From NCBI GenBank assembly GCA_016200325.1, contig JACQEZ010000009.1, positions 62,001 to 126,000 of the forward strand: DNA of 64,000 nt. The letters are read 5' to 3'. Under the pieces are notes generated by a model, which searched no databases, was not told the origin of the DNA, and saw only the letters and a list, made by a program, of their open reading frames with translations. This document shows, one piece after another, positions 9,304 to 32,987 of the stretch; position 1 is the stretch's first letter, and each line of letters starts with the position of its first letter. The stretch is from Candidatus Manganitrophaceae bacterium (GTDB taxonomy: Bacteria; Nitrospirota; Nitrospiria; SBBL01; Manganitrophaceae). A program made the position numbers and the translations under genes.

Positions 9304-9304
9304 G

Positions 9305-15286: not shown

Positions 15287-18200
15287 TCACACTTCTCCAG
15301 ATTCCAAAATCGAATAATAACTCGAGACTTTCATGTTTTCCACTGCCTTCTCGTGAATTTCTTCATCGATCATATTGATGAGCTCTTCTAAAGAAATTTC
15401 CGTTTTCCCTTCGACCTTATCGACGTACCACCGCATCGCCTCGTCAACAGATGTTTCGCAAAATTGGACCACCGTTTTTGAATTAAATGCCGGTTCGCTA
15501 TCAATATAGTGAAGGGTTTCCTCGTCTGAAAATATCTCAGGGAAGGATCGCTGATGGATCTGCTGGAAAAGAAAGCTGTTCAGCATCAAAGCCTTCCCTG
15601 CTTGGATATCCGGGAAACCGCCAAGTAACTCGGCCGCGACCACATCGAATACCTTCACCTGCTCCTTCAGCCGTGACAGATGCCGGAGAACAGGCGCCTC
15701 GGAAGATTTTTTCTGAAGACCTTCCATCCATCGATCAATCTCGCCAAGATGTTGAGGGTAAAGCGGCCGAAGGCGACCGGCCATTTGAATCCTCTCTTCC
15801 GCATTGTTCATCCCCTCAGCCATAAATCCATATTGAGCATTGAAAATATTAAACCCTTTGAGTATCGCCTTCGTCGTGACGACGAGCACCCGGCCCATCT
15901 TCTCCCCTAATCGATCAAATCCTTCGAGAATCCTATAACGCTCCTCTTTTTTAATCGTTCCGTTTATCGCGAACTCCGCCTCCGTCGCGGCGATTACGCT
16001 ACTTTGCGAAAATCGATAGTGACAGGCAATTAAAAGTGGGACCTCATGACGCCGAGCCAACTGCGCCATGCCCTTTGAGAAATTCTCAAAACTAGACGCC
16101 CGAGCGATCACTCGCCGAATGCGATCTCCATCTCCGGGTTCGATCTGGAGCGTTATTTTCTTACCCGAAAAGAGCGCGGAAAGACGACTGAGCACCTGAT
16201 CTGAAAACCGAAGCACTAATGGGAAATTGAGCGCCTCCGAGCCTTGAAAAATGAGCCCAAATTCGATGAGAGTTTGAGCCGAATCGATAAGGGCGGAGCC
16301 AATATCGTTAAGAAGGCGCCATAGTTCTGCTCGCTCGTATTCGGCGCGGCATCCGATCGCTCCTTGAATCATATCGTGAACCGATTGGAGAAAAGCGGGG
16401 TAGCGGACGAGGATCGACGGCCGGAAATGAATAAGACCGTCCTCGTCGGGTTTAAGTCCACCCAGGTCTTTCGCGAAGTTTCGGAGCAGCTGATCGCTTT
16501 TCTCAATTCGCGTCGTGAACCCTAACGCATCGCCGAGAGTTTCGATGATCGTCGTCCGTTTCTTTTCAATTTCCTCCCGAAGCCGATCTCGCTCGCGCGG
16601 TGTTATCTCCTGTGCGGGACGTTCGAGCAATTCGGCCAGCTCGAAGAATTTTATCGGGGTAAAGTATTGCGCTAAATCGTCAAAAAGTCGGGGCCCAAGA
16701 ATTCCTTCGCCTGACTGCTTTTCAAGGATTGCAAGAAGCTTTTTTCGTTCGGAAGGCTCGATGGCCAGATACGGAAAATGGTCGGTCTTATCGGTAATGC
16801 TGAATCCTTGATGAACTTTTCTGGTGACCTCCTCTTGTTTGTGGACCACAGCAAGACCTCGAACGGCGCCATAAGCGACTGCAAATTCCAACCTCAGTTT
16901 GGAAAACTCGTTCTCAATATCCGATTTTAGAAGCCACCATCCGGTCTGGTTAGCCCTTGCCTTGCGCACCAGGTTGGCGAACATCACTAAATTTAGAAAC
17001 TGCCTGATTTTCTCCAGTACCTCAAGCATCGTGACGCTCTCTATTAGGTTCGCCTTCAATTGCTTCGCATTGATTTGAAAATGGACGTCGGTTTCGGCGT
17101 TGAGCGCCCGGTCGTAGGTAATCGCGGAGGTCATTTCTTTCACAAGCAAGAGACATGGAATCAAACAGGAAAGCCTTCGCGATCCGGGATGATGAATCGA
17201 TTGTTTGAGCCCGGTGATGCCAGGGACCGGGTCCACCGCTGGCTGCGTGAATTGTAGATATCCGACACCGAGATGATTGAGGACATCTAGTAGCCCCACT
17301 TCAGTAGATTCCTCAACATCGATGGAGATCTTAAACAGACCCATATAATAAACCGCGTAATAGAACAACGCTAACACTGCTCCGGCGCAATCCGAGTAGT
17401 AGAGCGCCCGGAGCCGACGCTGTGATTCACTCGGTTTGTTCTCTCCATTTTTGTCCTCTTTCCCCTCGTCGAGAACGTTTCCGAAGAGTAGGACGCCGGT
17501 TCGGGAGCCTCCGTGTTTTAGGAGGGTAAGAAGCTGATCTAACGAAACGGGTCGGTCCGCCGTCGCCTCTCCCTGGAATTGTCGGAGGGACCGATCCATC
17601 CTCTCTGCGATTGCCGGATAACTATGCAGGAAGGAGGAGATATTGACGGCGTTCGTGTTAAGAAGATAAATAAAATCGCCTGTGTCGTTGTTTGTGGGCG
17701 TGGCAGAGAGCCGATAGTCCACCCAGAGCGCATGCCGCTTTTTTAGATGCGTATAGAGGAGCTCCATGGCATTGGAAATCCCGCTCTCGGTGTTCTTCAG
17801 AAAGCTGGATTCATCGGCCACGATGATAAACTCAAGACCGCGTTTAACGAGAATATCGAGTGGGTGGACAATCTGCCATTTCTCTTTCAAACCGAATTCG
17901 TGGCGACTTAAGACGACACAATCCCCTTCTTTGAGGGGCAGCGTGGAAAGATCTTTCATCTGGGTCATGTGGAGCGTGTCCTTTGAGACGCCGATATCGA
18001 TCATGGACTCGACGACGTTTTGCACAAGGTTCGCTTCAGTGAAATACAGCGTAACCAGTTTGGGACCGGGTTTTCCAGCTCTGATTGCTCGCCGGCCTAT
18101 GAGGTATGAAAATAGCCTGAGGAAGATCGGAGTGGTGTAGGTTTTGCCGGCGCCGACCTGACTGAAGTTGTTGAGCCGATATAGATCTTTCGGACACCGC

Positions 18201-19117
18201 CTCTCTTGAAGAAACGCCTCAAATGAGAGATAAGCATAAAAGAGCGCTTTCGTTTGCATCGAAGTAGGGGTTCCGTTCAACCCGGCAAGAAGGGAAGTGA
18301 GCAATTCGTTGAATTTTACATACTCGGGACGAAAGAATGAGGAATTGCCCGGAGGGACCAATTTACGTTCTATCGCCTTCACCTTCATTGAAATATAGTT
18401 GGATAGCGAGGGCCACGAGGCGATCGAGCAGACATAAATATTTTCACACAACGAAGCCATCCGCTCGAATTGCTGCAAGCTTCTCGTCAATTCCTTGCTC
18501 GCTCGCCCATTGTTTCTTGCGACCTCAAATATTTCGACGAGATCGCCTGGAGGGATCGCCTCCTCCTCTGCCAGCCGGCCGACCTCCGAAAGGAGCTCCC
18601 CCAGCTGGTTATTATCGATAGTCAGCGTGAATAACAGTTTAAAGAAATTATAATCTCGCTTATACCGGTTGATGATCGGTTCCTTCTTCGTTTCTTTACC
18701 ATTCTCGACCGCTGCATTTATGCATTCCTTCTCAGAGCGCAGATAGAGACGTTCAAGGTCCCGCAGCTTCCTCATCATCGTTTGGAGCGGTTGTATTTCC
18801 TCGTTCAGAGCAGCAATAAAACGCGACCGAAAGGAGTCTTGGTAAGGCAGCAAAAAGAGACCGGCCTCATGCGGCGCCGGCTGAATTGCTTTGAAAATCT
18901 TTTTATTTTTGACCGATGGAAAGAGCGCATCCATCTGGGGAGCCGGCGGGATTTCACCGCGAAGCAGTGGGTCAATGATCTGTTCGAAGTGGGGTATCTC
19001 ATCATAGACAAGTTCCGCCACGTCATCCGGAGAGCGCCGATGCCGTATGACCTTTTCGCGGAATGCCTTGAGGTCAACAACTTTTTTATGAATCGCCTCT
19101 CGCTTGCCGTCAATCAT
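15287..19117 (-). CDS. Very large SF2 helicase-like ATPase
   Basis: A 1276-residue SF2 helicase/translocase. Motif I is QVGAGKT near residue 325, motif II is VADESSFLKN (DESS rather than DEAD/DEAH), motif III is RLSATPTNN, and motif VI is QMAGRLRPLYP close to residue 1110. The 300 residues before motif I and the long middle insertion are not recognised. The RecA-like pair resembles helicases of large plasmids and phages that occur with N6-type methyltransferases, and such a methyltransferase lies at 30.4-33.0 kb. It is the last gene of the backbone block, downstream of the PRTRC cassette but behind a terminator, so it is probably its own unit. Confidence 0.8.
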   Translation of the reverse strand: MIDGKREAIHKKVVDLKAFREKVIRHRRSPDDVAELVYDEIPHFEQIIDPLLRGEIPPAPQMDALFPSVKNKKIFKAIQPAPHEAGLFLLPYQDSFRSRFIAALNEEIQPLQTMMRKLRDLERLYLRSEKECINAAVENGKETKKEPIINRYKRDYNFFKLLFTLTIDNNQLGELLSEVGRLAEEEAIPPGDLVEIFEVARNNGRASKELTRSLQQFERMASLCENIYVCSIASWPSLSNYISMKVKAIERKLVPPGNSSFFRPEYVKFNELLTSLLAGLNGTPTSMQTKALFYAYLSFEAFLQERRCPKDLYRLNNFSQVGAGKTYTTPIFLRLFSYLIGRRAIRAGKPGPKLVTLYFTEANLVQNVVESMIDIGVSKDTLHMTQMKDLSTLPLKEGDCVVLSRHEFGLKEKWQIVHPLDILVKRGLEFIIVADESSFLKNTESGISNAMELLYTHLKKRHALWVDYRLSATPTNNDTGDFIYLLNTNAVNISSFLHSYPAIAERMDRSLRQFQGEATADRPVSLDQLLTLLKHGGSRTGVLLFGNVLDEGKEDKNGENKPSESQRRLRALYYSDCAGAVLALFYYAVYYMGLFKISIDVEESTEVGLLDVLNHLGVGYLQFTQPAVDPVPGITGLKQSIHHPGSRRLSCLIPCLLLVKEMTSAITYDRALNAETDVHFQINAKQLKANLIESVTMLEVLEKIRQFLNLVMFANLVRKARANQTGWWLLKSDIENEFSKLRLEFAVAYGAVRGLAVVHKQEEVTRKVHQGFSITDKTDHFPYLAIEPSERKKLLAILEKQSGEGILGPRLFDDLAQYFTPIKFFELAELLERPAQEITPRERDRLREEIEKKRTTIIETLGDALGFTTRIEKSDQLLRNFAKDLGGLKPDEDGLIHFRPSILVRYPAFLQSVHDMIQGAIGCRAEYERAELWRLLNDIGSALIDSAQTLIEFGLIFQGSEALNFPLVLRFSDQVLSRLSALFSGKKITLQIEPGDGDRIRRVIARASSFENFSKGMAQLARRHEVPLLIACHYRFSQSSVIAATEAEFAINGTIKKEERYRILEGFDRLGEKMGRVLVVTTKAILKGFNIFNAQYGFMAEGMNNAEERIQMAGRLRPLYPQHLGEIDRWMEGLQKKSSEAPVLRHLSRLKEQVKVFDVVAAELLGGFPDIQAGKALMLNSFLFQQIHQRSFPEIFSDEETLHYIDSEPAFNSKTVVQFCETSVDEAMRWYVDKVEGKTEISLEELINMIDEEIHEKAVENMKVSSYYSILESGEV

Positions 19118-19147
19118 GAATTGAACTCCAATTGGACGTTATAAAAT

Positions 19148-19183
19148 GAGAGCCCAGCCTCCGTCGCCGAAAGCTGGGCCCTC
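19148..19183 (-). terminator. Terminator after the PRTRC operon
   Basis: Hairpin pairing GAG-GCCCAGC with GCTGGGC-CTC (one mismatch), then CATTTTATAA on the minus strand. It lies 20 bp after the ThiF stop and 30 bp before the helicase start. Confidence 0.65.
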
Positions 19184-19203
19184 ACTATCATTTGAGCCTT
19201 TCG

Positions 19204-20007
19204 CTATCTTCTACCTTTCTTTGGTTGCTTTGGGCCGATCCGATATCCAAATCGTTTCCAGATTTCAGGATCGATCGGTAGAACCCGCGTGTTCCGCGGC
19301 TGCAGGCTCACATAAGAAACCGAGTAATCGATGTAGCCGCGGCGGAATGCGAACCATAGTAGCTGGCTCGCCTCCAACGCAACAAACTGGTTGATATAGA
19401 GATCTTGCTGCTCGATCGCTTCAGCAAGCGAACAAGAGGGCCCCGAATCTTTTTCACGTTTAGGATCCGCGATCTCCGGGTAGAGGTCTAAAACAGTTGG
19501 CAGGCGATCTATGGCGTCTTTGCGTTCGGGTTGATTGATCGCCCTGGGGGTTCCCAGAATGACCTGCCCGTTCTGTTGACTGTTTCCGCAATCGAGCCAA
19601 TAGACCAAATCGCGACCCGCACTCTGAAGGAAGTGACCGATCGTCACGCGGGCTTTCCCGGTGTCGACGGCCGTAATGACAAGGCTCGCTCTGTGATCAT
19701 GGCTTCCAGGATACCGCCGCGGCTCCGCCATCCATGAGAAGCCGGTACACTGATTAATTCGGGTGACCAGTATCGTCGCCTTTGGATGGCCCACATCTTC
19801 TCGATAAAAGAGCTGCCGGCCGACGTTTGCGTCTGTCACATAGTCGGGATCGTACACTGTGACTGAGATCCCGGGATGTCCCAGAGCGAGAAGAGTTTGG
19901 TTAAGGTAAACAAGCCTTCCGGCGACGGCGCTGCCGGTTCCTCCACAGCCGACCAGGTCGACTTCCACTGGGGAATGGGTGCTTGCCAGCGGGAAATAGT
20001 GGCGCAT
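19204..20007 (-). CDS. PRTRC system ThiF (E1-like adenylyltransferase)
   Basis: A 267-residue E1/ThiF-fold enzyme, expected to adenylate the C-terminus of a ubiquitin-like protein. The nucleotide-binding loop GCGGTGS is at residues 20-26, an acidic strand end reads VYDPDYV, and the Arg finger region is ANVGRQLFYREDVGHPKA. Cys192 in GPSCSLAEA is the likely thioester cysteine. It is the last gene of the cassette and overlaps the gene for protein A by one base (TAATG). Cognate partners here are the Ubl-like protein C, the E2-like protein B and the JAB protein A. The target of conjugation is unknown. Confidence 0.93.
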   Translation of the reverse strand: MRHYFPLASTHSPVEVDLVGCGGTGSAVAGRLVYLNQTLLALGHPGISVTVYDPDYVTDANVGRQLFYREDVGHPKATILVTRINQCTGFSWMAEPRRYPGSHDHRASLVITAVDTGKARVTIGHFLQSAGRDLVYWLDCGNSQQNGQVILGTPRAINQPERKDAIDRLPTVLDLYPEIADPKREKDSGPSCSLAEAIEQQDLYINQFVALEASQLLWFAFRRGYIDYSVSYVSLQPRNTRVLPIDPEIWKRFGYRIGPKQPKKGRR

Positions 20008-20639
20008 TAAGACCTCCTTTCTCCTCTTTCAAGAGAAACGTCTTCATCGAAGTAGAAAGAGGCAATACAGAGCCGCAGCTCGCAATCCAAATCGGCGCGA
20101 TTCATGCCGCGCTGACATTTGCCGAAGACCATTGAGAAGTGAGGATTTCCCTGGTCCGACCGTTCGTCTGTGGATGAGAAAAAGGCTGGGAGCCGGCCGT
20201 GGCTATGCAAATCAAGAATCAGATGCCACTCCGGTTCGAGCTGTGGCCATCGATACGAAACGCTTACCGCGCTCTGATCAAGAAATTCCAACTGGTGATA
20301 CTTCCAGCCGATCGTCGGATGCCAGATGATCCAAGCGGCCGTTTCGCAACCTCGTTCCGCTTCCTCGTTCGCCTGGAAAGCGAATTGATCGAGGTACCTC
20401 GTTGGGATCCTTCCGCATCGTAATGCGCCTATCTCCTCAATCAGGCCATACGGAAGGTCCCTCGGACTGTCCCAGAGCTGTTTTCTAAAATGCCCCCAGA
20501 TCGCGTCGGCCTCGATCCAGAGACCATCCTTCGCCATGAGCAACCTCGCGGTGCCCGGCGCGATCGGCGAGAGCGGTTCATAAATCGGGACAATCATCGT
20601 CGGTAATTGCCGTTGTAGAATGTCGTCTTTCTGATTCAC
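20007..20639 (-). CDS. PRTRC system protein A, JAB/JAMM peptidase-like
   Basis: A 210-residue protein of the PRTRC A family. The JAMM-type zinc motif is visible as DLHSHGRLPAFFSSTDERSD: His145, His147, the Ser before Asp158, and Asp158/Asp162. Such enzymes cut isopeptide bonds or the tail of ubiquitin-like precursors. The start overlaps protein B by 62 bp. Residues 11-30 (QLPTMIVPIYEPLSPIAPG) match the usual family opening, so the long overlap seems genuine. It probably works with ThiF, B and C. Confidence 0.9.
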   Translation of the reverse strand: MNQKDDILQRQLPTMIVPIYEPLSPIAPGTARLLMAKDGLWIEADAIWGHFRKQLWDSPRDLPYGLIEEIGALRCGRIPTRYLDQFAFQANEEAERGCETAAWIIWHPTIGWKYHQLEFLDQSAVSVSYRWPQLEPEWHLILDLHSHGRLPAFFSSTDERSDQGNPHFSMVFGKCQRGMNRADLDCELRLCIASFYFDEDVSLERGERRS

Positions 20640-21345
20640 CCAGACCGATCCTTTCCAGTAGCCCGCCGACGGTGAAACCCGCCGGCTTTAAGAGCTGATA
20701 GGGGAAGCGCTTTCGTTTTCCGGAAATGAGATCCCCCCAAAGCTGTCGCATCGTTCCTTTCTTCAAGACCGCCGTGTCCTCCGCGTTCGTATGGGTGAAC
20801 GCGCTTTGGTAGAAGGCGGTGGTCCAGCCCGGGATGGCGGCCGGCCAGCAATGATCGGGGATCTGACTCGAGCCGCAGCAGACTTCGTGCTGAGCGTTTA
20901 CGTTGTAGAAGGGACTCTTAAGAAGCGGGGTCTTCAACTCCGGTCTCCCGTCCCCTCCGGAAACGAAAACCAGAAGAGAATCCGGCCGAGCGACCAGAAT
21001 CAGGGAGGGCCACTCGACGACTCCGCTTTTGAGGTCCGCCGATTTACCGAAATACATCGGTTTGCGGACCGGAGGACACCAGAAGATCAATGGGCCGTCG
21101 ATGCCCCACCCATAGGCAAGAAGCGTGGGATCGACCCAACCGAGCCGCCGATTGATCACCGGAAGCATCGTCTGACAGAGCGCTTCTAAGGTTTTTCTCT
21201 TTACCGGTTCCCCCGCTTTTAGTTGCGGTATTCCCTTTTCGTCTATAAAAATGTTATGGATCTGCCAGTAGTCGATCGCCGGCGAATCGGGTTGATCCGC
21301 CGTGTAGTAGAGCAGAGCGATCTTTGGAATCAGCGGATTAACCAT
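20578..21345 (-). CDS. PRTRC system protein B, E2-like
   Basis: A 255-residue protein of the PRTRC B family, regarded in comparative genomics as a divergent E2 (ubiquitin-conjugating) fold. Family marks are YGWGIDGPLIFWCPP, YFGKSADLKSG and the segment NVNAQHEVCCGSSQIP, where Cys156 or Cys157 would be the thioester cysteine. The C-terminal third (WTTAFYQSAFTHTN onward) is the usual helical tail. It overlaps protein F by 8 bp and protein A by 62 bp, so the cassette is tightly coupled. Confidence 0.88.
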   Translation of the reverse strand: MVNPLIPKIALLYYTADQPDSPAIDYWQIHNIFIDEKGIPQLKAGEPVKRKTLEALCQTMLPVINRRLGWVDPTLLAYGWGIDGPLIFWCPPVRKPMYFGKSADLKSGVVEWPSLILVARPDSLLVFVSGGDGRPELKTPLLKSPFYNVNAQHEVCCGSSQIPDHCWPAAIPGWTTAFYQSAFTHTNAEDTAVLKKGTMRQLWGDLISGKRKRFPYQLLKPAGFTVGGLLERIGLGESERRHSTTAITDDDCPDL

Positions 21346-22423
21346 CCTTTTTCTCCTTTTCTTTTTCCGGCGGTCTGTCGAGGCCGCATGCCTTGACGTG
21401 CAAATCGTAGATTTCCCCCAACCTTTCGAGAGTAAAAAGAATCTCTTTTAAGTCCTCCGCGCTGGAAAGGCAGTAAGCCGCCGCTGATCGTCCATAATTA
21501 CAGAACTCGTTCTGCATCATTTCATCGAACGCGTCCATGATCGGATCCGTTGGGGACCAGAGGATCGGCATCAGGTAGTTGGGATCGACGTTCTCGGAAT
21601 CGAAGTCGCGAAATTCCAATTCATAAGAGACCGGAGCCTTCCAATCGGCGCTTCTCTTTTGCACCTCCTTCGACCACGACCACCATCCATGGAGCCAGGA
21701 GTTCTCAGGGGGCGCTTTCGGCGTGCGTGGAAATTCCGCCTTTTTCCCGTTGCGAAGAACGCTCCGGTACCGTTTTGGGATCCCTTCATTCAGCCATTTG
21801 ATTCTTTCCTGAAGTTCTTTCTCCACCTCCTGACCCTGCTCGTCATTGATCTCTTGTTCCAACCAGTCGAGGACTCGTTCTCTTTCGTCCTCATAGGTGT
21901 AGCAAGGCTTCGCCCATGTAAGGGTTCTCAGCGCCGCCAGGACAAAGGCCTCCAAACGGCGATCCTCTTTTCCGATTAGCTCGAGAATATCGCAGAAAAC
22001 AATTCCCACCTTCGCCGGATAGTCGACGACCAGGCAAACCTGAAGGCGGCCCGATACCGGATGCTGTTCAACGAGCATCTGGTGGCCGTACTTCCCAAAA
22101 CACCGCTCCGCCCTCTTCTCTAGAATCGCGCTGATCCAGCCGCTTAATTCCTCATGAATGATCTGGGATCCGGTCTTCTTCTCCCAGGGTCCGGGAATTC
22201 GCTCACCCGATTTTCCGATTGCGGGAAAAAACCAGAGGCCGATCTGAGCGAGCCTCATGTTGAGGATATCGGTCGCCATGTCCGGCAGCGTGACCAGGTG
22301 GCGAGGAAGTCGTGGAAGGGGGATTAGAGCAGGAGGGAGAGCCACTCTTTTCGGACCGAGACTACGGGTCCATTCATTTGCCGGCGCGCTCCGACGCATT
22401 GCGTGAGCGCCTCTTGAACCCAT
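21338..22423 (-). CDS. PRTRC system protein F
   Basis: A 361-residue protein assigned to the PRTRC F family by position between C and B and by its general character: a proline-rich start (VALPPALIPLPRLPRHLV), then a mixed alpha/beta domain with no catalytic motif I recognise. The GTG/ATG region at 22423 has AAAGGAGGTG 6 nt in front, which is a strong ribosome site; this site and the first 33 codons lie inside the 3' end of gene C. The C-terminus is Lys/Glu-rich. Function unknown, perhaps a scaffold of the Ubl system. Confidence 0.78.
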   Translation of the reverse strand: MGSRGAHAMRRSAPANEWTRSLGPKRVALPPALIPLPRLPRHLVTLPDMATDILNMRLAQIGLWFFPAIGKSGERIPGPWEKKTGSQIIHEELSGWISAILEKRAERCFGKYGHQMLVEQHPVSGRLQVCLVVDYPAKVGIVFCDILELIGKEDRRLEAFVLAALRTLTWAKPCYTYEDERERVLDWLEQEINDEQGQEVEKELQERIKWLNEGIPKRYRSVLRNGKKAEFPRTPKAPPENSWLHGWWSWSKEVQKRSADWKAPVSYELEFRDFDSENVDPNYLMPILWSPTDPIMDAFDEMMQNEFCNYGRSAAAYCLSSAEDLKEILFTLERLGEIYDLHVKACGLDRPPEKEKEKKDG

Positions 22424-22710
22424 ACGACACCTCCTTTCTTAAAGTACTCGTCTCCTTGTTTGGCCAGTTGTTGGACGGTAATAAAATCGGGGGGCGATTG
22501 CTCGCCCCCCTTGGTTCCCACGGCCCGGGTGAATTTATAAACCTCCTTTTCAGCCCGACGCTCCGGCTCCTCGATGACCGCCTGCGACAATTCAGGATAG
22601 GACGCCGCATAGAACTCCTTTACCTGCTCCGGTGTCATCGTGCTGTCGGGATCCTCGAGCTTAATTTGACCATGCATAAAGATCCGCTCAATCGGTTTCA
22701 CTTCTATCAT
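22324..22710 (-). CDS. PRTRC system protein C, ubiquitin-like, with long C-terminal tail
   Basis: A 128-residue protein. Residues 1-67 match the PRTRC C family (prokaryotic ubiquitin-like): RIFMHGQIKLEDP, MTPEQVKEFYAASYPELSQA and the end KEVYKFTRAVGTKG. Family members known to me stop there at about 70 residues with a C-terminal Gly. Here the frame continues as Gly68-Gly69 plus 59 more residues (EQSPPDFITVQQLAK...), overlapping protein F by 100 bp. This could be a precursor tail removed by the JAB protein A before ThiF activation. It follows protein E after 24 bp. Confidence 0.85.
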   Translation of the reverse strand: MIEVKPIERIFMHGQIKLEDPDSTMTPEQVKEFYAASYPELSQAVIEEPERRAEKEVYKFTRAVGTKGGEQSPPDFITVQQLAKQGDEYFKKGGVVWVQEALTQCVGARRQMNGPVVSVRKEWLSLLL

Positions 22711-22734
22711 CTGTTCTCCTCCAAATTGCTGCGG

Positions 22735-23262
22735 TTATTCGAACAAACTAAATCCCTGTTTCTTGCCCCCTTCGCTTTTTCCCTTTTCAACCTCTGAAAC
22801 GGTGACGGCGGCGGTCCCATCCGATTCACTTTCGTTTTTGTCATCGAGCTCTTCGGAACCCTCGTCGTCGGGGCTGTCGGTCACCGCGTTTCCCTCTGGG
22901 GCGCTGGAGGCCGTTGGATTGCCGCTCTGTTCCTTCTTTGCTGAGGTTTTACCGGATCCGGAAATCGCTTTGTCCACCGCTTTTCGCTTTTCAGACATCG
23001 CTCTGTAGAGTCGCCCATCCTCTTCGAAATTTTGCATCAGAATCCCCAGGAACTTTTCATTGAGTTCGTCCGCGGTTGCCTTGATGGCGATCGGCACCCG
23101 GGCCTGGTCATAGCGGACCTTTTCGGCGCCCGACAATCCATCCACCGAAGGAAAGACCGGGTGGACGAGGACCATGAGATGATCCAGTTGAATCTTCGAA
23201 ATGGTGAAGGTTATTTTCCCCTGAAGCGGAATCAGCTCCGCCAACTTGTTAAAATCGATCAT
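22735..23262 (-). CDS. PRTRC system protein E
   Basis: A 175-residue protein of the PRTRC E family. The folded N-terminal half (LIPLQGKITFTISKIQLDHLMVLVHPVF, then PIAIKATADELNEKFLGIL) matches the family pattern. The C-terminal 80 residues are acidic, Ser/Gly-rich and probably disordered (DDEGSEELDDKNESESD), ending in GFSLFE. The exact role is unknown; it is always found beside ParB and the Ubl genes. It lies 41 bp downstream of parB. Confidence 0.85.
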   Translation of the reverse strand: MIDFNKLAELIPLQGKITFTISKIQLDHLMVLVHPVFPSVDGLSGAEKVRYDQARVPIAIKATADELNEKFLGILMQNFEEDGRLYRAMSEKRKAVDKAISGSGKTSAKKEQSGNPTASSAPEGNAVTDSPDDEGSEELDDKNESESDGTAAVTVSEVEKGKSEGGKKQGFSLFE

Positions 23263-23303
23263 GGACTTCTCCTTAATTGAGGTTCAATTCTGCTATCGAG
23301 GAT

Positions 23304-25895
23304 CTAGGACACTTCCAGCGTCGTCTCGCGCTGGAGCCAGGCCGGCATCCGGTCCGCCTTAAAACCGGATGAGAGAAGGCCTTTGATGAACTCCTTTTTC
23401 GTCAGCGCGGCCAGCTTCGCAAGGGACTTTCCTTTTGCCTGAAGAAATCGATCGAGACCGATCTCTTTCGCCGTATCTTCAATCTCCCCTTTGGTCAGCA
23501 ACTCCAGATACTCTTTATCGACCGAGAACAGCGCTTCGGCCGAGAGATGAAGGTTGCCGTAGAGTAATTCTTCCTCTAGATGGAGGGTAAGGTGGCTGCA
23601 GACCGGCCGTGCGATCTCCCCCGCGATGGAGATCAGCTCCTCTCGCCCGGCTTTATGGATCAGCGGGTAGGCTTTATCGGTGGAATGATCGCTCCACTTC
23701 ACCGCGTCACTGAACGCTTTCAACTTCGGATTCTCCGACCAGGAGCGGCTCCACCTCGTATCGATCAACCCGAGAATCACAACGCGGACCAGATTTTCCG
23801 GAGTTTCCACGAGGTGTCGGGTCAGGTACTCGCGATATCGCCGCCGCTTCATCTCTTTGACCCGTTGCGGAGCGTTTTGAGGAATCAGTTTTTTCGGCCG
23901 TGACGGCGCCCCTCCGGTTGATTTTGATTTGCCGGCGCTTCCTTTTGCCCGACCGGTCTTTTTCGCATTCTTCGATTTTACGTCCGACTTTTCTTCTTTT
24001 TTATTGGCCTCCCGGAACCGGCTCGCGCAATCGTCATAGCACCCTTTATTTCCGCAGATTTTCTGCTGAAGGAGCCGTCCATTCTTCGAGACGAAGACCA
24101 CCAAGAACTTGCAAGACGCGCACTCCTTAATCTGCTCTTCTCCGATTTCGGCCCGGTTGTGAAGCACCGCCAATGAACGATCGACGTCGCTCGGAAGGTC
24201 TCCCAAACCGATCTGGACCGTTTCGGTTAAGACCGCCCTCGGACCGCTTTCCTCGATGAGCCGGACGAGGTCGTTGGCTTTTTCCTCTTCTTTTTTCCTC
24301 CAGCAAGGGGACTGAAGGCATTTTCCAAGCCCCGACGCCACCCGCTCAAACAGATCCGGTTGGCCGGCGCTGTTATGCGGACACTGGCGGCATTCCTCCG
24401 TATCGAACGGCGCCCGGGTGAGATCAAGATCGTTGTTCTCGCTCAAATAGTTTGAAAGCTGTCTTGTGTTAAGTTGCTCTGCCTCGACCTTTTCAAGAAG
24501 AAGCAGTTGTCGCTCTTGAGGAAGGCAAGCCAGGATTTTGGCGATCCCCACGTTCAGTTTCCCGGATCGGAGCTTTCCACGCACGTGACCATGAAGTGAC
24601 AAAAGCGAGAGGCGGTCCCGGATGTAGCTTTCGTCATGAAACACCCTTTCCGCGATCTCTTTAATCGAGCGGCTTTTCAGATCTTGCTCGAAATCCTCCG
24701 CCTCATCGATCGGGGAGAGGTTCTCTCTCTGTAGGTTCTCAGAGCGACGGATATCGCGAATTTGCTCAGGTGTGAGGTCGGTCTTAATAAACGCGGCAAT
24801 CGTATCGAGATTCAGCAGCTGGTGGGCTCGAAACCGGCGCTCGCCGTAGACCAGGTGGTAGGTTCCGTCCCCGATCGGGGCGACGGTGATCGGTCCCTGA
24901 AGCCCTCTCGCTTTGATATCGGCCGCCAGCCCCGCCAGCCGCTCCGGATCGATGTATTGTCGGGTGTTTTCAACCACCCGAATTGCATCCACCGGAACCA
25001 AGACGGCTTGATGAGCGGGACTCAGGGCGAGCGCTGCGCTCGCACTTGAATCGGCCTTCGGGGAGATCTCCAAGGCGCTGAGGACCTCCGCGGGATCCGG
25101 CAGGGGTTCCCAGTCCCGGACCCGAACTCCCAAAATGAACTTCGGACCGGTTAACTCCTTTCCGGTTTCTTTAGAATATCGTTGCCACACCGTTCCGGTC
25201 GGGGTATCCACCCCGGCCAGTCGATCCCACCGCTCTTGGGTCGGCTCCTTCCAATATGCAATCGCCAAATCTTCGAGCGTTGATTCAGGCGCATTTTCCG
25301 GTTCGAGACCGGCCCGCTCCCTCACGCGATTCCAGGAATTCGACGAAAGATCCTCCTCCTTAGAAAGCAGACCCTTCTTTATCCAATGCTCGGTAAGGAG
25401 ATCGGCAAGGGAGGTTTTGTTGATCGATCGGAGGTCCTGAATGGCCAGGACCGGATCGAAAACCTCTTCCCGGCCGATGTCCTTGTCGTAGACCTCGAGC
25501 GTATCGATCCATTTATAGTCATCCCCACTCTCCGGATAAGCGTCCCGATAGAGGGCCTTGAATTCGATTCCGACATCCTCGCAAAGCCTCTTCGCGATCA
25601 GATGAATCGGTCCGGTCGAATCGAAATCCCACCCCATCCCTTGTAAAAAGGGGCGAAGTGCCCATGAAAATGAGGCCGACGCCTCCGGATCCTCAGGAAC
25701 CTGAAAAAGAACATAGAAAGAGGTTTCTTCTGAGACCTCATTCCATTTCGCGGCGAGTTCGCCGATCTGAGCCCGAAGACCTACTTCGATAACCGATCCT
25801 TCCTCGATCTGATGGATGAACGGGAGGACCTTCTCCCAGCCGCCATCGATCGGCTCCCGGAAAACCGTTATATGTTTGGAAACACCTGATTTCAT
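23304..25895 (-). CDS. parB: PRTRC-type ParB with long N-terminal extension
   Basis: An 863-residue ParB-family protein, first gene of the PRTRC cassette. The ParB core begins near residue 300 (VPVDAIRVVENTRQYIDPERLAGLAADIKARGLQGPITV). The CTP/nuclease motif is GERRFRAHQLL and a second motif reads RRSENLQRENLSPIDEAEDF. A helix-turn-helix (SIKEIAERVFHDESYIRDRLSLLSL) follows. Two Cys clusters come later (CRQCPHNSAG...CLQSPCW and CASCKF...CGNKGCYDDC). The first 300 residues are an added region I do not recognise; usual PRTRC ParB proteins are nearer 550-600. No ParA is present in the window, so plasmid partition is not demonstrated. Confidence 0.92.
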   Translation of the reverse strand: MKSGVSKHITVFREPIDGGWEKVLPFIHQIEEGSVIEVGLRAQIGELAAKWNEVSEETSFYVLFQVPEDPEASASFSWALRPFLQGMGWDFDSTGPIHLIAKRLCEDVGIEFKALYRDAYPESGDDYKWIDTLEVYDKDIGREEVFDPVLAIQDLRSINKTSLADLLTEHWIKKGLLSKEEDLSSNSWNRVRERAGLEPENAPESTLEDLAIAYWKEPTQERWDRLAGVDTPTGTVWQRYSKETGKELTGPKFILGVRVRDWEPLPDPAEVLSALEISPKADSSASAALALSPAHQAVLVPVDAIRVVENTRQYIDPERLAGLAADIKARGLQGPITVAPIGDGTYHLVYGERRFRAHQLLNLDTIAAFIKTDLTPEQIRDIRRSENLQRENLSPIDEAEDFEQDLKSRSIKEIAERVFHDESYIRDRLSLLSLHGHVRGKLRSGKLNVGIAKILACLPQERQLLLLEKVEAEQLNTRQLSNYLSENNDLDLTRAPFDTEECRQCPHNSAGQPDLFERVASGLGKCLQSPCWRKKEEEKANDLVRLIEESGPRAVLTETVQIGLGDLPSDVDRSLAVLHNRAEIGEEQIKECASCKFLVVFVSKNGRLLQQKICGNKGCYDDCASRFREANKKEEKSDVKSKNAKKTGRAKGSAGKSKSTGGAPSRPKKLIPQNAPQRVKEMKRRRYREYLTRHLVETPENLVRVVILGLIDTRWSRSWSENPKLKAFSDAVKWSDHSTDKAYPLIHKAGREELISIAGEIARPVCSHLTLHLEEELLYGNLHLSAEALFSVDKEYLELLTKGEIEDTAKEIGLDRFLQAKGKSLAKLAALTKKEFIKGLLSSGFKADRMPAWLQRETTLEVS

Positions 25896-25946
25896 TTTAT
25901 GTCCTCTGTGATTGATGTCTGCATATCGGTCGCTCCAATTCCGTTC

Positions 25947-26687
25947 TTATTCGGCAGGGCGATCGAAGGCTTTTCCAACGGCCTGTAGCTCGCCCGCGCT
26001 TCCTACCCGCGAGTGCTTATGGAAGCGGCTTCCGGATATCCAAGCCTCCGCACGTTGAACCGCAAACGCGGGGGCCGGATTCGTTTGGACGGCCGTTCTG
26101 ATCACCCTGCTCCTGACCTCCGTCGCCGTGAAACTTCCGTTTTCGACGTGTGAAATAAGATAGTATTGCCCTTCCCTTTTCCTGGACCGGCTCTCCCCGG
26201 GCTTCCATACCTTGATCACCGCTTGCGCTCCGTCCCATCCATAAAAGTGGAAACGGTCAGAGTCCCTCTTGCCGTTCCCTTGGATCCCGGCGCCGGCGTT
26301 CGTGATGGAGTCGATGAAACGAATGAGTCGAAAAAGATGATGTTTTGTAATTTGAAACGCCGGCAGGTACAACGCGTTGGTAAAGAACCTTCTGATGAGG
26401 ATCGGACGCGGAAAATCATCCGTCTTCACCGTGATGATCAACTCCCCCAAAGCTCCCCTGACGGGGCTTATCTCAACGGTTAACGTCTGGAGGTCCAGAA
26501 TCCGCTTTTCAATCTTTTTTCTGTGAGAGGCCGCAGTCTTAGACGTCCGGAGTCGATGGTCATTTTGAGCGAGTAACTTCTCCCGTTTTTCATGCAACGA
26601 CAACAGGTTCATCGCTTTGATCCATCCCGGTTGACGGGCTTTCACGATGGCGCGCTTGGTCACAAGGAATTTCTCAAGAGAATTCAT
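25947..26687 (-). CDS. Unknown protein upstream of parB
   Basis: A 246-residue protein I do not recognise. The N-terminal third is basic and helical (KRAIVKARQPGWIKAMNLLSLHEKREKLL). The middle has a beta-rich domain (LQTLTVEISPVRGALGELIITVKTDDF), and later FHFYGWDGAQAVIKVW. The tail is basic. The start is the ATG at 26687 with AGGTGAACAA in front; a longer in-frame start lacks a ribosome site. It ends 51 bp before parB and starts 33 bp after the zinc-finger protein gene, so it probably shares their transcript. Confidence 0.7.
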   Translation of the reverse strand: MNSLEKFLVTKRAIVKARQPGWIKAMNLLSLHEKREKLLAQNDHRLRTSKTAASHRKKIEKRILDLQTLTVEISPVRGALGELIITVKTDDFPRPILIRRFFTNALYLPAFQITKHHLFRLIRFIDSITNAGAGIQGNGKRDSDRFHFYGWDGAQAVIKVWKPGESRSRKREGQYYLISHVENGSFTATEVRSRVIRTAVQTNPAPAFAVQRAEAWISGSRFHKHSRVGSAGELQAVGKAFDRPAE

Positions 26688-26719
26688 TTGTTCACCTACT
26701 TCTTTTGTTTGAACGCGAA

Positions 26720-27895
26720 TTATCTTTCCTCCGGATAACAAATGGTGACGATCCACCCTTCAGGGTGTCGCTCCGGGATTCCCCAGATTTCGCCTGTTTG
26801 ATCTTCGTACTTTATGATTCCGGAGATCCCCGCGCGAAAGCTCTTCGCGACTCGATGCACGATTCCAAGGAAGTTCGGGAGTTGTGAAACGCGGTTCGTA
26901 GCGACATACCGGGCTTCTCGCGGGGGAAGGGGATCGGTGATATACTTTCCGGGAATCGGGCACCGTTTCAAGCGAAGGAACCTCAACATGAACTCGACGC
27001 CCCAGTCCCCGCACTGGCCGCACCAAGCCATCCCCGATACTTCATCACAGGAATCCATGTAAGCTTTCGCCTCTTCGATCGTACTCGGATCTTTTTCATA
27101 GGCGTTGGCGCATTCCGGACAGACCGGGTGGTCGCAGCTCGGGCAGGTTATGACGTCCATTCGCGGCATCGCGCGTTCGAATTGAACCGGTTCCCCATGA
27201 ATGCCGCAGTAAAAACCTTTTACCGCGATCAGCGCCGACACCGCCTGGAATTCCAATTCCGTCGACTTCCCGTAGAGCTTTCGCATCCGCTCATCCACGC
27301 TCCCTTCCTGCTTATCTTTCGGCGGGGGGGATCCGGCGCCTCGCCCGCTCTCTCTCGAGAGAATATTCGCCCGTTCTGAGAGTCTTTTGATCTTTCGGGC
27401 CACGGCTGCGGGGATTTCGAGCGGATCCTTTGAATCGACAAACCTTCCCTTCTTATTGACGGGCGGATAGTGAATGAGATTGAAGAAAAGGGCGACCTGG
27501 GCGTCATTCTCCGTATCGAGATGCTCCCAGAGCAAGGGAAGATAAACACCCTTGGCGTTTTTTGTTTGAGTCGAGGTCAGCCAACCGATCTGTTCATCCG
27601 TGTAGGCCTGTCTGAGGTTCTCGTCCTCTTCCCCGGCAGTGTGTTCTTTTAACCAACCGTTAAGATCCTGAACCCCCGCCATCTTTTTCATCTCTTCCCA
27701 GGCGCTGGCCGATAAGTGGTCCGGGAGCCACTCAATGAGCGCGTTCCGTATCTCTCCTCCCACCTCGGTTTCCTTCAGGTAGTACTCGCGCTCCCGTTCG
27801 ATCAGCGCTTCGAAGTCTTTTTCTCGAAGCGCCTCATAAAGCGTTCCGCCCGTCTGGCCAGTCAATTCGTAAATAAACTTTACCTTCTCGCTCAT
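26720..27895 (-). CDS. Unknown zinc-binding protein of the element backbone
   Basis: A 391-residue protein, not recognised. The N-terminal half is acidic and helical. The C-terminal half has zinc-knuckle pairs CPSCDHPVCPEC and CGQC, plus an isolated Cys-Gly-Ile-His, which suggests a RING- or treble-clef-like zinc domain of about 100 residues. In a genome region that also encodes E1-, E2- and Ubl-like proteins a RING-like partner would be of interest, but spacing here is not that of a classical RING. The start at 27895 uses GGAG 9 nt upstream; it lies only 18 nt behind a strong hairpin. Confidence 0.72.
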   Translation of the reverse strand: MSEKVKFIYELTGQTGGTLYEALREKDFEALIEREREYYLKETEVGGEIRNALIEWLPDHLSASAWEEMKKMAGVQDLNGWLKEHTAGEEDENLRQAYTDEQIGWLTSTQTKNAKGVYLPLLWEHLDTENDAQVALFFNLIHYPPVNKKGRFVDSKDPLEIPAAVARKIKRLSERANILSRESGRGAGSPPPKDKQEGSVDERMRKLYGKSTELEFQAVSALIAVKGFYCGIHGEPVQFERAMPRMDVITCPSCDHPVCPECANAYEKDPSTIEEAKAYMDSCDEVSGMAWCGQCGDWGVEFMLRFLRLKRCPIPGKYITDPLPPREARYVATNRVSQLPNFLGIVHRVAKSFRAGISGIIKYEDQTGEIWGIPERHPEGWIVTICYPEER

Positions 27896-27913
27896 AGAAT
27901 CGATCTCCATAAA

Positions 27914-27951
27914 AAGAGGCCCTTTCCGGGTTTCAACGGAAAGGGCCTCTT
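27914..27951 (-). terminator. 15-bp perfect hairpin with U-run
   Basis: AAGAGGCCCTTTCCG pairs perfectly with CGGAAAGGGCCTCTT around an 8-nt loop, and the minus strand continues with TTTATGG. It lies between the histone-like gene and the zinc-protein gene. The start codon of the latter is only 18 nt further on. Confidence 0.75.
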
Positions 27952-27990
27952 CGGTTGCCCAATGCGATCAGCGCCTCGTTCTAACCCTGC

Positions 27991-28215: not shown

Positions 28216-28228
28216 TTCCGACCATCCC

Positions 28229-28498: not shown

Positions 28499-28565
28499 CG
28501 GTTTTATCTTTTCCAACAAAAGCTCCTCTCTCCATGACGGCCGAACTTCTCTTTCCAATAAGCAA

Positions 28566-28600
28566 AGGAGGCCCGCCACATACAATCGGCTGGGCCTCCT
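28566..28600 (-). terminator. Intergenic hairpin after the GHKL ATPase gene
   Basis: AGGAGGCCC pairs with GGGCCTCCT, extended by GCC/GGC with one bulge around a 10-nt loop. The minus strand continues TTTGCTTATT. It lies between the GHKL ATPase stop (28624) and the small Cys protein. Confidence 0.6.
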
Positions 28601-28623
28601 CTGTGTGCAACTGACTCTGGTTC

Positions 28624-30276
28624 CTACCCTTTCAATTCCTCAACGATGATGTTGTCCTCGCCGGCTTTCACCACGAACGTCAATCCTTGAAGCGGTTTCA
28701 GGTACCGCTCCAGCGCCCACGAAACCAATTTCGAGTGGTCATTCTTGAGGACCGCCAATAGGGACCGAAATTCCATATGGTCCTCTTCGAACCCCGCGGC
28801 GTCGAAATCATCATCTTCGTTTTGATAACTGAACGCCTGGTCGATCGGATAACATTCGCGGTACGGTCCATCGATGATCCAGAAGGTATCCTGAAGAAAC
28901 GCGTCCTCCCGGACCTCCTTTTTCCCATATCCGGACACACGGAGATGATGGCGCTTGCAGATCACGACCCGCTTTCCACGCCATTCGCCCTCCGCCACGA
29001 CTTCGGCCGGGTTCACGGAGACGCTCAGCTTCCGTAGAAAAAATCCCTCCAACTCCTCCGCTCGCTCCGCGGACCGAACCCAGTGGTTCGGATCGTCCCA
29101 CGCGGCCAGAATCGGAAGGGAAAAGAGATAGGCCGCAAAGTGATGGCCCATGTTCTCCTCCGAAGGCCAAAAACAATAACGTGTTCCGATCAGGAAGCGT
29201 CGACCGTCCCCCTTTAAAGGAATATCGCCCGGAGGAACAAGCGCGACCGCATGCTCCTGATCATCCGCTTCGAACTGCGGCAGGTGCAACGGCTGCGAGA
29301 TTACCCGCCACCGATCGGCCGGGATCGGAAGCGCTCGGACGAGATCCGAACAATCCCAATCAATCAGTCGATCGAAAAACTCCGCCGCTTTGCCGATCGC
29401 AATAATATGTTCCGCGACGGCTCTCTTCACGGCCCGATGCAGGGATACGACCTTTTGATAGACCTCATCGCTGTCGTAGAGGTAAATGCGGTCAGGGGCT
29501 TGTAGCCTCCAGGTATTGCCGATCAGGTGAAGATAGACAACCATTCCCGCCGCATGAAGGCTCGGCCACTGCCCCTCGCGATTGCCATACGGTCCCAAAG
29601 GCAATCCTTGATAATAGGTGAGATCAAGCGGCCGATGGTTCTGGCGATCCAATACGACCTGAGCGATTCCATCTGGAAATTGAAATTTCAGGCCCTTCCA
29701 AACATCCAGAGCGTGGGGCCTGGGGAGCGGCTGCCCGTTGAGGAAGACCGGGACAGGAAATCCCGGGACCAGGTCGCTCAGAAAATCCCGGAAATCTTCC
29801 GTGACGCGGTGACTTACCTGGGAGAGTGGTTTTACCAGGTGAACCGTGATGGCGGTCCCTTCTTTAATGTCATCCCGTTGAAGGAGGATCGCCTCCCCTC
29901 CTAAAAGCCGCTCCTTTTGAATGACCGCCCGCCAGCCTCGCGAGCGGACTTCGACCCTCCGGGCGATATCGATCGCCGACCAAAAACCGACTCCGAAAGG
30001 GAGGTCCTTCTCGATGATATCCGGTTCCCAATCCGAGGCGCCTGGATCGAGGAGCGCCTGGAAATTCTCGATTCCGCGACCGTTATCTTCAATCCTGAAA
30101 TAATGAAGATCGGACGGATCGGTCAATATCGAGATGCGTGTCGCGCCGGCGCGGCGGGCGTTCTGCAACAGCTCCCCGATCCAGATCCGCTCGCCCGAGA
30201 AAACATCGCCGAACCTCCGCATCAGGGGTATAAACTTCTCATCAAGGCCAATCGAAGGTTGTTCCATCGTCTCCAT
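28624..30276 (-). CDS. GHKL (Hsp90/MutL-like) ATP-binding protein
   Basis: A 550-residue protein with an N-terminal GHKL ATPase domain. The N-box is WIGELLQNARRAGATRISI, the G1 box EDNGRGIENF, and the glycine lid LPFGVGFWSAI. A second domain with RVTEDFRDFLSDLVPGFPVPVFLNG resembles the ribosomal-S5-like transducer of this superfamily. The C-terminal 300 residues are not recognised. It lies between the methyltransferase and the small Cys protein genes and is flanked on both sides by hairpins. AAGGAG lies 9 nt before the ATG at 30276. It may act on DNA or proteins; the partner is unknown. Confidence 0.82.
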   Translation of the reverse strand: METMEQPSIGLDEKFIPLMRRFGDVFSGERIWIGELLQNARRAGATRISILTDPSDLHYFRIEDNGRGIENFQALLDPGASDWEPDIIEKDLPFGVGFWSAIDIARRVEVRSRGWRAVIQKERLLGGEAILLQRDDIKEGTAITVHLVKPLSQVSHRVTEDFRDFLSDLVPGFPVPVFLNGQPLPRPHALDVWKGLKFQFPDGIAQVVLDRQNHRPLDLTYYQGLPLGPYGNREGQWPSLHAAGMVVYLHLIGNTWRLQAPDRIYLYDSDEVYQKVVSLHRAVKRAVAEHIIAIGKAAEFFDRLIDWDCSDLVRALPIPADRWRVISQPLHLPQFEADDQEHAVALVPPGDIPLKGDGRRFLIGTRYCFWPSEENMGHHFAAYLFSLPILAAWDDPNHWVRSAERAEELEGFFLRKLSVSVNPAEVVAEGEWRGKRVVICKRHHLRVSGYGKKEVREDAFLQDTFWIIDGPYRECYPIDQAFSYQNEDDDFDAAGFEEDHMEFRSLLAVLKNDHSKLVSWALERYLKPLQGLTFVVKAGEDNIIVEELKG

Positions 30277-30389: not shown

Positions 30390-32987
30390 TTACGAAACAG
30401 TCTCGAGGGAGGCGGCGCGCTTCCTTGAACGCGCGAAACCTCCGGAGAGAATTCCCTCTACCTGCTCCAGATGCGCTATCAGCGCGTCGGTTTTCTCGAT
30501 GAGATTTTTGATTCTCCGCTCCGATATCGTCGACGAGGAAAACTGCTTCAGGTAACCAATATAGCGCTCCTGTTGGTTCATCGATTCCAGGGGAGAGAGG
30601 GCCCCATTCATCGCATTCACCCGCTCCGGATTCTGCTGAGCCAGGGAGTGAAGCAACCGACCGAGTTCTCGCGCCAACGCGTTTGAAGATCGCGTAAGAG
30701 GTAAGGCCTTGCCGGCCGAGGGCATTCCCCCGTCAAAAAGCGACTCCTTCCACTCTTTCCCGATCGCACCCGCAATCTCAGTCGCCGCCTGCTCGGCGAA
30801 TTGGTTGAACTGAACAGCGGACCGCCTGATAATCCGCGATCGCTCTCCGATGTGAGAAATAACCGCTTTCTGTTCAGCCTCCGGAAAGGCCTCCAGAAGT
30901 CCCGTAATCTCGCGGCCGTTTAGAAGATATAGGGAAAACGGGTATGGAATTTGTCTGAGGAGAGGGTGATGACATTCAAAGCAAAATCCGTTGAACGGCC
31001 CGTAAATGTCTTTGATCTCCTTTCCGGCCGTCGAGAGAAAGATCGCGGAGAGAATATAAAACCGAGAATAGAAACGGTTCGAAACCGCCAGGATCGCGTC
31101 GAAGGCCCGCTTCACGCTGATTGAGACGACGGAGCCTCCCTTCGACCGGCGCTTCCGTTTTGAGAGGAGATCCCGAAGAGGATTTCTCTTAAGATGAAGG
31201 AGGATTTCCTCCTGCAGCGGAAAATCCCATTTTGATTCGAGCTCCCGGACCCAGGACTGAAGGTCCGCGATCGTCGCGATCTGCTGAAATCTTTTTGCGC
31301 CGGCTTCGTCGCGCATTTTTCTGAATCGTTCGACTTCATGAATCTGGAACGAGCGTTTAGACCCCTGAATCCGTTTATCGATCCTCGAAAAGACCGCTTC
31401 CTTAATTTGAATGAATAAGCGGAGGAGATTGGCCAGTTGTGCCATTCGCGAGGAGGTCCCCAGATGTTGCCGCTCCAGGGGACCCCATCGCTCCGGACTC
31501 AGGTAGAGTTCGACGAATTGCGGCAGGACACCATAATCCATCGCCAGAATATCGCATTCCGACCAGGCCGTTTGTTTCCCATTGGCTTCGCGAGCCGGAA
31601 GGTAGGCGCTCAACGTGATGAAACATTGCGCTTCGACTTGTTCCTTTCCCGTCAATTTCTCCCCATCGAAGCGATAGGCCGACATGGAAATCGGCGCCAG
31701 TTCCGCTCCGTTTGCCGAGAACGGCTGACCGGAGAGCGCCAGAATCAGGATCGGGTGGCTCGTATGCCCGGTGGCATGCCGGACCCGCTTAAAACCACGC
31801 GACCGCGCCGAAGAGACGAGGAGAGTCAGACCTCCGTCGCGCAATTTCATCGGAAGAACCTGGCGTGTGAAAGAGGTCAACGAAAATCCGTCGGCCAGCT
31901 TAGAAAGGCCGAATCCCCGGAAGGTTTTTTCCAACCCCTTCTTTGGAATGTCATTGATAAACGGAGGATTTGCCAACAGCAGATCGAATAGGCCGTTGGG
32001 GAGTTGATCGAATAGGTCAAACGCATGGCCCGATAGAACGCCGCAGCGGCGCGAAAGGGGGAGGGGCTCCCCGTTGCGGCAGGCCTCCGCCACGGCGGTG
32101 GGATCTACCCAACTGGTGACCTCCGCCATCTCGGCTGAGAGAGGGTTTAGGTCGTAACCGAGGGTTAAAAAACCAGGATGCGAAGCGATCGGCCGGATCA
32201 GGGCCCCTTTGCCGACGTTCGGCTCCAGGACATTGATTTCGCCTCCGGAAATGGAGGGCATCTGAAGAAGACGAAGAAGGTGTTGAAAGAGTTCAGGGGA
32301 GTAATAGGCCCCATTCCCCTCCTCGGAATTGAGTTTTCGCCCCGGGCGAGGAACCAGTCCCCCGTCGATGTTTTTCTCAATCGTCGAAAGACGTTCAAGG
32401 AAATGTTCGATCTGGACCGCGCTGACGTCCCCAGAGCAGAGCCGATCCAAGTCCTGTAGGAGAGACTGCGCGACGATCTCGACCGTTGCGTTGGGAGGAG
32501 ACGCAAGGACGGCGCGCACGCCGGAGAGGAGCAACCGGCGCTGCGCCATCGGAGGAAGGCGTTCTCGAAGGTAAGTGAGCTGGGCCCGGACCAGGTCGAC
32601 GGAAACCCGGAGGCCTCCCTCGCCCGAATAACCGCAATAGATCTCTTTCAAAGTCCGCCCCATCGCCTCCCACGATTTCGCGAGCTCCGGTCCGGGACGC
32701 TCTTTACTTAACCGGATCAGATCGCTCAGCCGCTTCCCAACCGTGCGAAGGGCATAAATGGATTGGATATATTTGGACGCTCGATCGTCAGCGTCTTGAA
32801 ATTGCGTGGTCCAACTATCCGGAAAAACCAGATTCGATAGGAACCGTAGTTCAAAACCTTTCTTTTTGTCATGATTCTCCTCTATGGCGCTGATCATCAA
32901 TACGGGAAGCGATCCGCTCGCGATCGGACCGTTTTCGATCAGCGCGAAGAGGTCAAGCTGCTCTGATGGTTTCACGCTGCGCGACAT
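30390..32987 (-). CDS. Large N6-type DNA methyltransferase-like protein
   Basis: An 865-residue protein with a gamma-type amino-methyltransferase core. Motif I is VLEPNVGKGALIRPI, motif II GYDLNP, and motif IV LLLANPPFIND. A 300-residue helical region comes before it and a 350-residue region after it; neither is recognised, though one short Cys/His site (FCFECHHP) is visible in the latter. DNA adenine modification is expected. I see no HsdS or restriction subunit beside it. Co-occurrence with an SF2 helicase of similar size suggests the helicase/methylase pairs of large plasmids and phages, which are proposed to counter host defence. Confidence 0.83.
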   Translation of the reverse strand: MSRSVKPSEQLDLFALIENGPIASGSLPVLMISAIEENHDKKKGFELRFLSNLVFPDSWTTQFQDADDRASKYIQSIYALRTVGKRLSDLIRLSKERPGPELAKSWEAMGRTLKEIYCGYSGEGGLRVSVDLVRAQLTYLRERLPPMAQRRLLLSGVRAVLASPPNATVEIVAQSLLQDLDRLCSGDVSAVQIEHFLERLSTIEKNIDGGLVPRPGRKLNSEEGNGAYYSPELFQHLLRLLQMPSISGGEINVLEPNVGKGALIRPIASHPGFLTLGYDLNPLSAEMAEVTSWVDPTAVAEACRNGEPLPLSRRCGVLSGHAFDLFDQLPNGLFDLLLANPPFINDIPKKGLEKTFRGFGLSKLADGFSLTSFTRQVLPMKLRDGGLTLLVSSARSRGFKRVRHATGHTSHPILILALSGQPFSANGAELAPISMSAYRFDGEKLTGKEQVEAQCFITLSAYLPAREANGKQTAWSECDILAMDYGVLPQFVELYLSPERWGPLERQHLGTSSRMAQLANLLRLFIQIKEAVFSRIDKRIQGSKRSFQIHEVERFRKMRDEAGAKRFQQIATIADLQSWVRELESKWDFPLQEEILLHLKRNPLRDLLSKRKRRSKGGSVVSISVKRAFDAILAVSNRFYSRFYILSAIFLSTAGKEIKDIYGPFNGFCFECHHPLLRQIPYPFSLYLLNGREITGLLEAFPEAEQKAVISHIGERSRIIRRSAVQFNQFAEQAATEIAGAIGKEWKESLFDGGMPSAGKALPLTRSSNALARELGRLLHSLAQQNPERVNAMNGALSPLESMNQQERYIGYLKQFSSSTISERRIKNLIEKTDALIAHLEQVEGILSGGFARSRKRAASLETVS

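Follow-up and report, generated by a model that had tools for sequence, protein, structure and literature searches.

The operon class closest to the genes considered here was first described by Iyer, Burroughs and Aravind in 2006 (row 6d; PMC1779556) and is named PRTRC in the NCBI models (TIGR03734-TIGR03742). The same study made the general prediction that JAB proteins process ubiquitin-like (Ubl) proteins and also detach them from their targets (PMC1779556), and in the BIL system the JAB protein BilC reportedly processes BilA so that the glycine at its C terminus is exposed (PMC11354881). A search of the open-access literature found no functional study of PRTRC, which agrees with the statement in the initial annotation of this DNA that the families are catalogued and their role and targets unknown; text matches to 'PRTRC' in a Rhizobium tropici paper proved to be the plasmid name pRtrCIAT899. 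Here we analyze a ParB-E-C-F-B-A-ThiF cassette within a 64,000-nucleotide stretch from a Candidatus Manganitrophaceae bacterium (contig JACQEZ010000009.1, positions 62,001 to 126,000; hereafter the window). Named relatives point to Candidatus Manganitrophus, a manganese-oxidising member of the Nitrospirota. The cassette belongs to PRTRC, operon class 6d, and adds a new host and element to a catalogued system. Its Ubl protein C continues beyond the predicted conjugating glycine, and sequence comparison among loci supports both the identity of the parts, with their catalytic residues, and the confinement of such tails to loci that carry the JAB gene A, which most likely encodes the maturation protease of C.

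Protein C (128 amino acids; 22324..22710, on the minus strand like all genes for which coordinates are given below) matches TIGR03738 with 76.7 bits (cut-off 46.0) and Prok_Ub with 79 bits. Its Ubl domain (residues 1-68; 22507..22710) ends in AVGTKG, and the TIGR03738 model stops at the last glycine, Gly68, which aligns with the terminus of tail-less C proteins. Beyond it the window protein carries 60 further amino acids (residues 69-128 and stop; 22324..22506), a predicted pro-peptide whose final stretch is shared with the 5' end of F. This tail past the conjugation-competent glycine was missed in the initial annotation.

The relation between A and the tail was surveyed in a first set of 177 loci and in a full set of 259, which form 86 clusters at 70% ThiF identity. 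Among the 177 C proteins of the first set, residues follow the glycine where A is present, whereas in A-less loci C stops at the glycine; the lone seeming exception, the tailed C of L001, comes from a part of the window in truncated form. Final calls were taken from a model-anchored alignment, and gave a tail in 20 of the 30 clusters with A (18 through the model alignment, L199 and L210 by eye) and in 0 of the 56 clusters without it, one of the A-less C proteins having a terminal alanine in place of glycine. Four apparent A-less tails from a regular-expression count were rejected, as their positions fell inside the Ubl domain. Plasmids of other taxa, fetched after the pattern had first been seen in the 177 loci, provided further data in which it also held. 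The A-less C proteins of this later group terminate in ...FGDRG (pJBCL41 and pQBR55), ...VKTNG (Aeromonas and Vibrio) or ...ADSNG (Alteromonas); with A present, the tails are about 60 residues long in Xanthomonas and Ahniella and about 7 in a Bacillus phage, and C is tail-less in Rhizorhabdus and Methylomonas. At A-less loci B usually abuts ThiF, which leaves no room there for A, and a search of A-less-type sequences, comprising five complete plasmids and four whole genomes, did not find A, with both positive controls detected; on the same sequences, all matches to a general JAB model stayed below its cut-off.

On the ThiF tree, A-bearing lineages show several gains and losses of the tail, and zero tail changes fall on the A-less branches, which make up 55% of the tree length. 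When tail evolution independent of A was simulated on this tree, 0 of 5000 runs gave no A-less tails together with at least 20 with A, and the observed frequency difference was reached in 1 of 5000, figures that depend on one weakly supported ThiF tree. The restriction of tails to loci with A, taken together with the simulations, is the reason why we regard maturation of C by A as most likely.

The two parts of C also differ in how they evolve, and the boundary between them falls at the glycine. In phages of the Burkholderia/Pseudomonas type the Ubl domain hardly varies: the median ratio of nonsynonymous to synonymous substitution rates (dN/dS) is 0.05 for this domain. The tails are modular, with a median of 0.48 overall and values of 0.06-0.08 within one type. 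The corresponding Nitrospirota values are 0.19 (Ubl) and 0.61 (tail), where the partial overlap of the tail with F affects dS. Purifying selection on the tail is present, albeit weaker than on the Ubl domain. The swapped tails of the phage C proteins have a common AH(V/A)CPLL end motif, and the C and B genes of some Manganitrophus loci (L016, L029 and L038) seem frameshifted when compared with those of relatives, perhaps through sequencing errors.

The enzymes that would act on C were assigned with NCBIfam models at their curated cut-offs and with Pfam. ThiF (19204..20007), an E1-like adenylyltransferase, matches TIGR03736 (251.5 bits; cut-off 144.8) and PF00899; A (20007..20639), a JAB/JAMM metallopeptidase with an N-terminal DUF2016, matches TIGR03735 (140.8 bits; cut-off 101.8), PF09436 and PF14464 (Prok-JAB); and the E2-like (Prok-E2_D) protein B (20578..21345) matches TIGR03737 (158.5 bits; cut-off 131.5) and PF14460. 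The initial annotation drew attention to the GCGGTGS motif and Cys192 of ThiF; in the seed alignment the invariant set consists of the GxGGTGS P-loop, N61, R64, K76, D115 and Cys192 within PSCS. With L206 and L211 doubtful, almost all of the 86 clusters retain the catalytic cysteine. The His-x-His...Asp it had noted in A is part of a complete JAMM motif, HSHGRLPAFFSSTD, intact in 30 of 30 A clusters, and Glu99 of A is invariant in the seed set. Of the two residues it had singled out in B, the first, Cys156, is the same in all 39 homologues aligned, but Cys157 is unique to the window among seven aligned B proteins and was rejected as the catalytic residue. Asn148 of B lies 8 residues before Cys156, a spacing that varies in other lineages and is the one found in the HPN...Cys arrangement of eukaryotic E2s.

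A structure model of B (pLDDT 88) gave no Foldseek match below E 0.001, and searches of the PDB by sequence returned no usable relative. Realigned to 977 chains, the model has E2/UBC enzymes in all of its top 21 rows (UBE2S, Ubc9, UbcH5 and others), with Z of 4.3-5.1 over about 100 residues, which suggests a predicted E2 fold. The earlier reading of the cassette as a prokaryotic E1/E2/Ubl/JAB set on a mobile element is supported by the family models, the catalytic motifs, the E2-like predicted fold of B and the boundaries of the element described below.

On balance, we think it probable from these sequences that the locus is a PRTRC Ubl conjugation system carried on an integrative element, in which A trims C, ThiF and B relay it and the system serves the element. 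Within this proposal we infer cleavage, a thioester relay, conjugation and roles for E and F. C would be made as a precursor, and A would cut after the GTKG glycine to release the tail. ThiF would adenylate the exposed glycine and take C onto Cys192, from where it would be handed to Cys156 of B, and B would join C to a target. F and E would likely be adaptors, or substrate- or ligase-like parts of the complex, and A may also take C off its targets again, possibly making it a deconjugase as well. The beneficiary would be the element, through its maintenance, its transfer or its conflict with the host or rival elements, and not the host.

Several observations weigh against this proposal. The ThiF tree has weak and long branches, A changes state on it only about 7 times, the majority of A-less clusters fall in a single large group of Bacteroidota type, and an independent-pairs test was without power as there were too few pairs. 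C is tail-less in 10 of the 30 A-bearing clusters, and therefore tail removal cannot be the sole job of A. The structural Z of B is modest, at about 5. The few changes of A, the uninformative pairs and the tail-less A clusters would fit a scenario in which tail and JAB co-occurred only through the shared ancestry of one set of lineages, with the tail left uncut and unrelated to A; we consider this unlikely, given that tail gains and losses recur in A lineages and never occur on A-less branches, that no simulated run reproduced the pattern, and that the boundary lies exactly where tail-less C proteins end. A further reading accepts the cut and makes C a precursor of two products, a tag and a tail peptide with a role of its own as inhibitory pro-domain, targeting signal or effector, the tails being swapped by mobile elements while the tag stays constant; this seems to us rather improbable.

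Other explanations concern what the relay achieves. The cassette could be a partition or stability module of the element, with ParB or replication proteins as the targets of C, as the position of ParB directly upstream in many loci, the wide occurrence on large plasmids and the helicase neighbours might indicate, but many phage and Bacteroidota-type loci have no ParB beside the core and we regard this as possible yet doubtful. As an obligatory target ParB was rejected on the same grounds, and the phage copies, mostly without ParB, mean that it is not the general target. An anti-phage defence of the CBASS/BIL type would fit the weak matches of PADLOC E1-E2 and BilD models to ThiF and the antiviral role of related Ubl systems (PMC10097602, PMC11354881); PADLOC matched none of A, B and C, however, the cassette lacks an effector such as a nucleotidyl cyclase, and phages themselves carry the core, so that we find it quite improbable. 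We give least credence to a sulfur-carrier or regulatory relay, in which ThiF would activate C as a thiocarboxylate or thioester with no protein conjugation. Although the P-loop region of ThiF is common to the ThiF/MoeB families and C would end in a single terminal glycine, against such a relay stands the presence of an E2-like B with an E2-like predicted fold and a Cys156 invariant in the 39 aligned homologues, and NCBIfam and Pfam models found in the cassette neither a rhodanese or cysteine desulfurase nor any biosynthesis gene.

The open reading frames named in the initial annotation are all present on the minus strand where it had placed them, and ThiF, A, B and C score above the PRTRC cut-offs. 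Its description of the cassette as complete was overstated and, by the NCBI scheme, not strictly true, E and F being diverged and D not found. The PRTRC ParB family protein (863 amino acids; 23304..25895) reaches 227 bits against TIGR03734, below the cut-off of 278.6, in an alignment of residues 306-845. Pfam places its ParB core (ParB_N and HTH_ParB) from about residue 300, after an N-terminal extension of about 290 amino acids (25036-25895) that finds a counterpart in few relatives. The core component E (175 amino acids; 22735..23262) has 31 bits against TIGR03741 (cut-off 38.0, not reached) and 25.3 against PF19556, slightly under the cut-off; its gene lies 5' of C in loci across phyla. F (361 amino acids; 21338..22423, with an alternative ATG start near 22402) matched no NCBIfam or Pfam model and was placed by its position and a weak profile match. 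It aligns with the Bacteroidota protein of the same locus position (hhalign probability 92.9), and through the Bacteroidota profile approaches the TIGR03742 profile, to which its direct similarity is weak; by profile comparison, F is a distant relative of the PRTRC F model. Its structure model is mostly helical (pLDDT 83), with no clear solved relative in the PDB by Foldseek or VIA and one significant structural match, an uncharacterized phage protein (BFVD). PRTRC_D (TIGR03739) gave no match in the genome, a weak negative in that no positive control matched either. Gaps of 24-41 bp separate ParB from E and E from C, and all later neighbours overlap. The ParB-E-C-F-B-A-ThiF order was found in Nitrospirota, Proteobacteria and phages, and Bacteroidota-type loci have the same order minus A; this recurrence across phyla excludes a chance association. 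The phage loci (Burkholderia phage BgVeeders33, L019; L161-L191) contain the core E-C-F-B-A-ThiF, mostly without ParB.

The mobile backbone proposed for the cassette was borne out and could be delimited. The contig with the window (C9; 154,765 bp) opens with a tyrosine integrase gene, after which come F-type type IV secretion system genes and a coupling protein. Its first 95 bp are repeated exactly at C9:144116-144210, and the last 43 bp of this repeat equal the 5' half of tRNA-Arg(CCT). An intact tRNA-Arg(CCT) carrying the identical 43-bp core occupies the extreme end of contig C15 (C15:94420-94496). These attachment (att) cores and the tRNA gene place an element of about 144 kb at tRNA-Arg(CCT), with the whole window inside it. 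The C9 start (C9:1-200) joins right-end sequence, core and integrase, a junction which would be expected only of an excised circle or of tandem copies and so is suggestive of these, but which may possibly be an assembly artefact. The integrase, secretion system, coupling protein and att sites by which an integrative and conjugative element is recognized are all present; as for the relaxase, PF03432 was not found, a Replic_Relax protein is present and other relaxase families were not searched. In relatives the cassette lies on plasmids and also within a 4.29-Mb contig.

Directly downstream of ThiF lies an SNF2/DEAD-like helicase (1276 amino acids; 15287..19117; Helicase_C at the cut-off, SNF2-rel_dom weak), which tblastx shows beside the cassette in almost every Nitrospirota relative, with genes of similar size in L014 and L016. 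Upstream are a 396-amino acid uncharacterized protein (26720..27910) with no Pfam or NCBIfam match, kept in 12 of 12 Nitrospirota loci compared, a GHKL/Hsp90-like ATPase (550 amino acids; 28624..30276; HATPase_c_3 at E 4e-4, under the cut-off) and an 865-amino acid protein (30390..32987) with no Pfam match and a weak PADLOC mad2-like match, the last two being present in most Nitrospirota loci. The block 15287-32987, from the helicase to the 865-amino acid protein, is as a whole kept in most Nitrospirota PRTRC loci. Elsewhere the window contains metal-resistance cargo (1-14715: an RND efflux triad, cation-efflux proteins, a MerR-family regulator and an aquaporin-like channel), a RES / Xre-MbcA-ParS toxin-antitoxin pair adjoining RadC (35538-36697), and the large chain of a ribonucleotide reductase carried by the mobile element (45785-47995).

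Plasmid records with a PRTRC cassette number at least in the hundreds, and Pseudomonas megaplasmids of clinical isolates are among them. The tail/JAB pattern, which appears to be unreported for PRTRC in the open-access literature, turns an uncharacterized JAB gene into a specific prediction, that C is cut after the GTKG glycine, and so makes one step of the mechanism directly testable; A-less systems with a ready-made C are natural controls for bacterial Ubl conjugation. A step similar to the one proposed here is found in quinolobactin synthesis, where in the QbsD/QbsE pair the JAB protein trims a short C-terminal extension and exposes the Ubl glycine, although that pair serves sulfur transfer for a siderophore and has no E2. 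In CBASS, Cap2 is an E1-E2 fusion, and it is the cyclase that undergoes conjugation. The window cassette resembles Cap2/Cap3 of CBASS in its E1/E2 and JAB chemistry, there directed at a bacterial conjugation target (PMC10097602), but contains no cyclase. With BIL (BilABCD) it shares the set of Ubl, E1, E2 and JAB, but BilA has two Ubl domains, and a weak, partial match of BilD to ThiF was all that the PADLOC BIL models gave on the cassette, which places it outside BIL. Likeness is greatest to class 6d, where the same genes, order and motifs recur: a Ubl, a JAB with an N-terminal alpha+beta domain, an E1-like protein, an E2-like protein with a conserved cysteine and a diverging helical protein (PMC1779556). 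The window locus departs from the PRTRC models in that its E, F and ParB lie below or outside the curated cut-offs and PRTRC_D was not found, and it differs from many PRTRC members in the 60-amino acid tail of its C protein.

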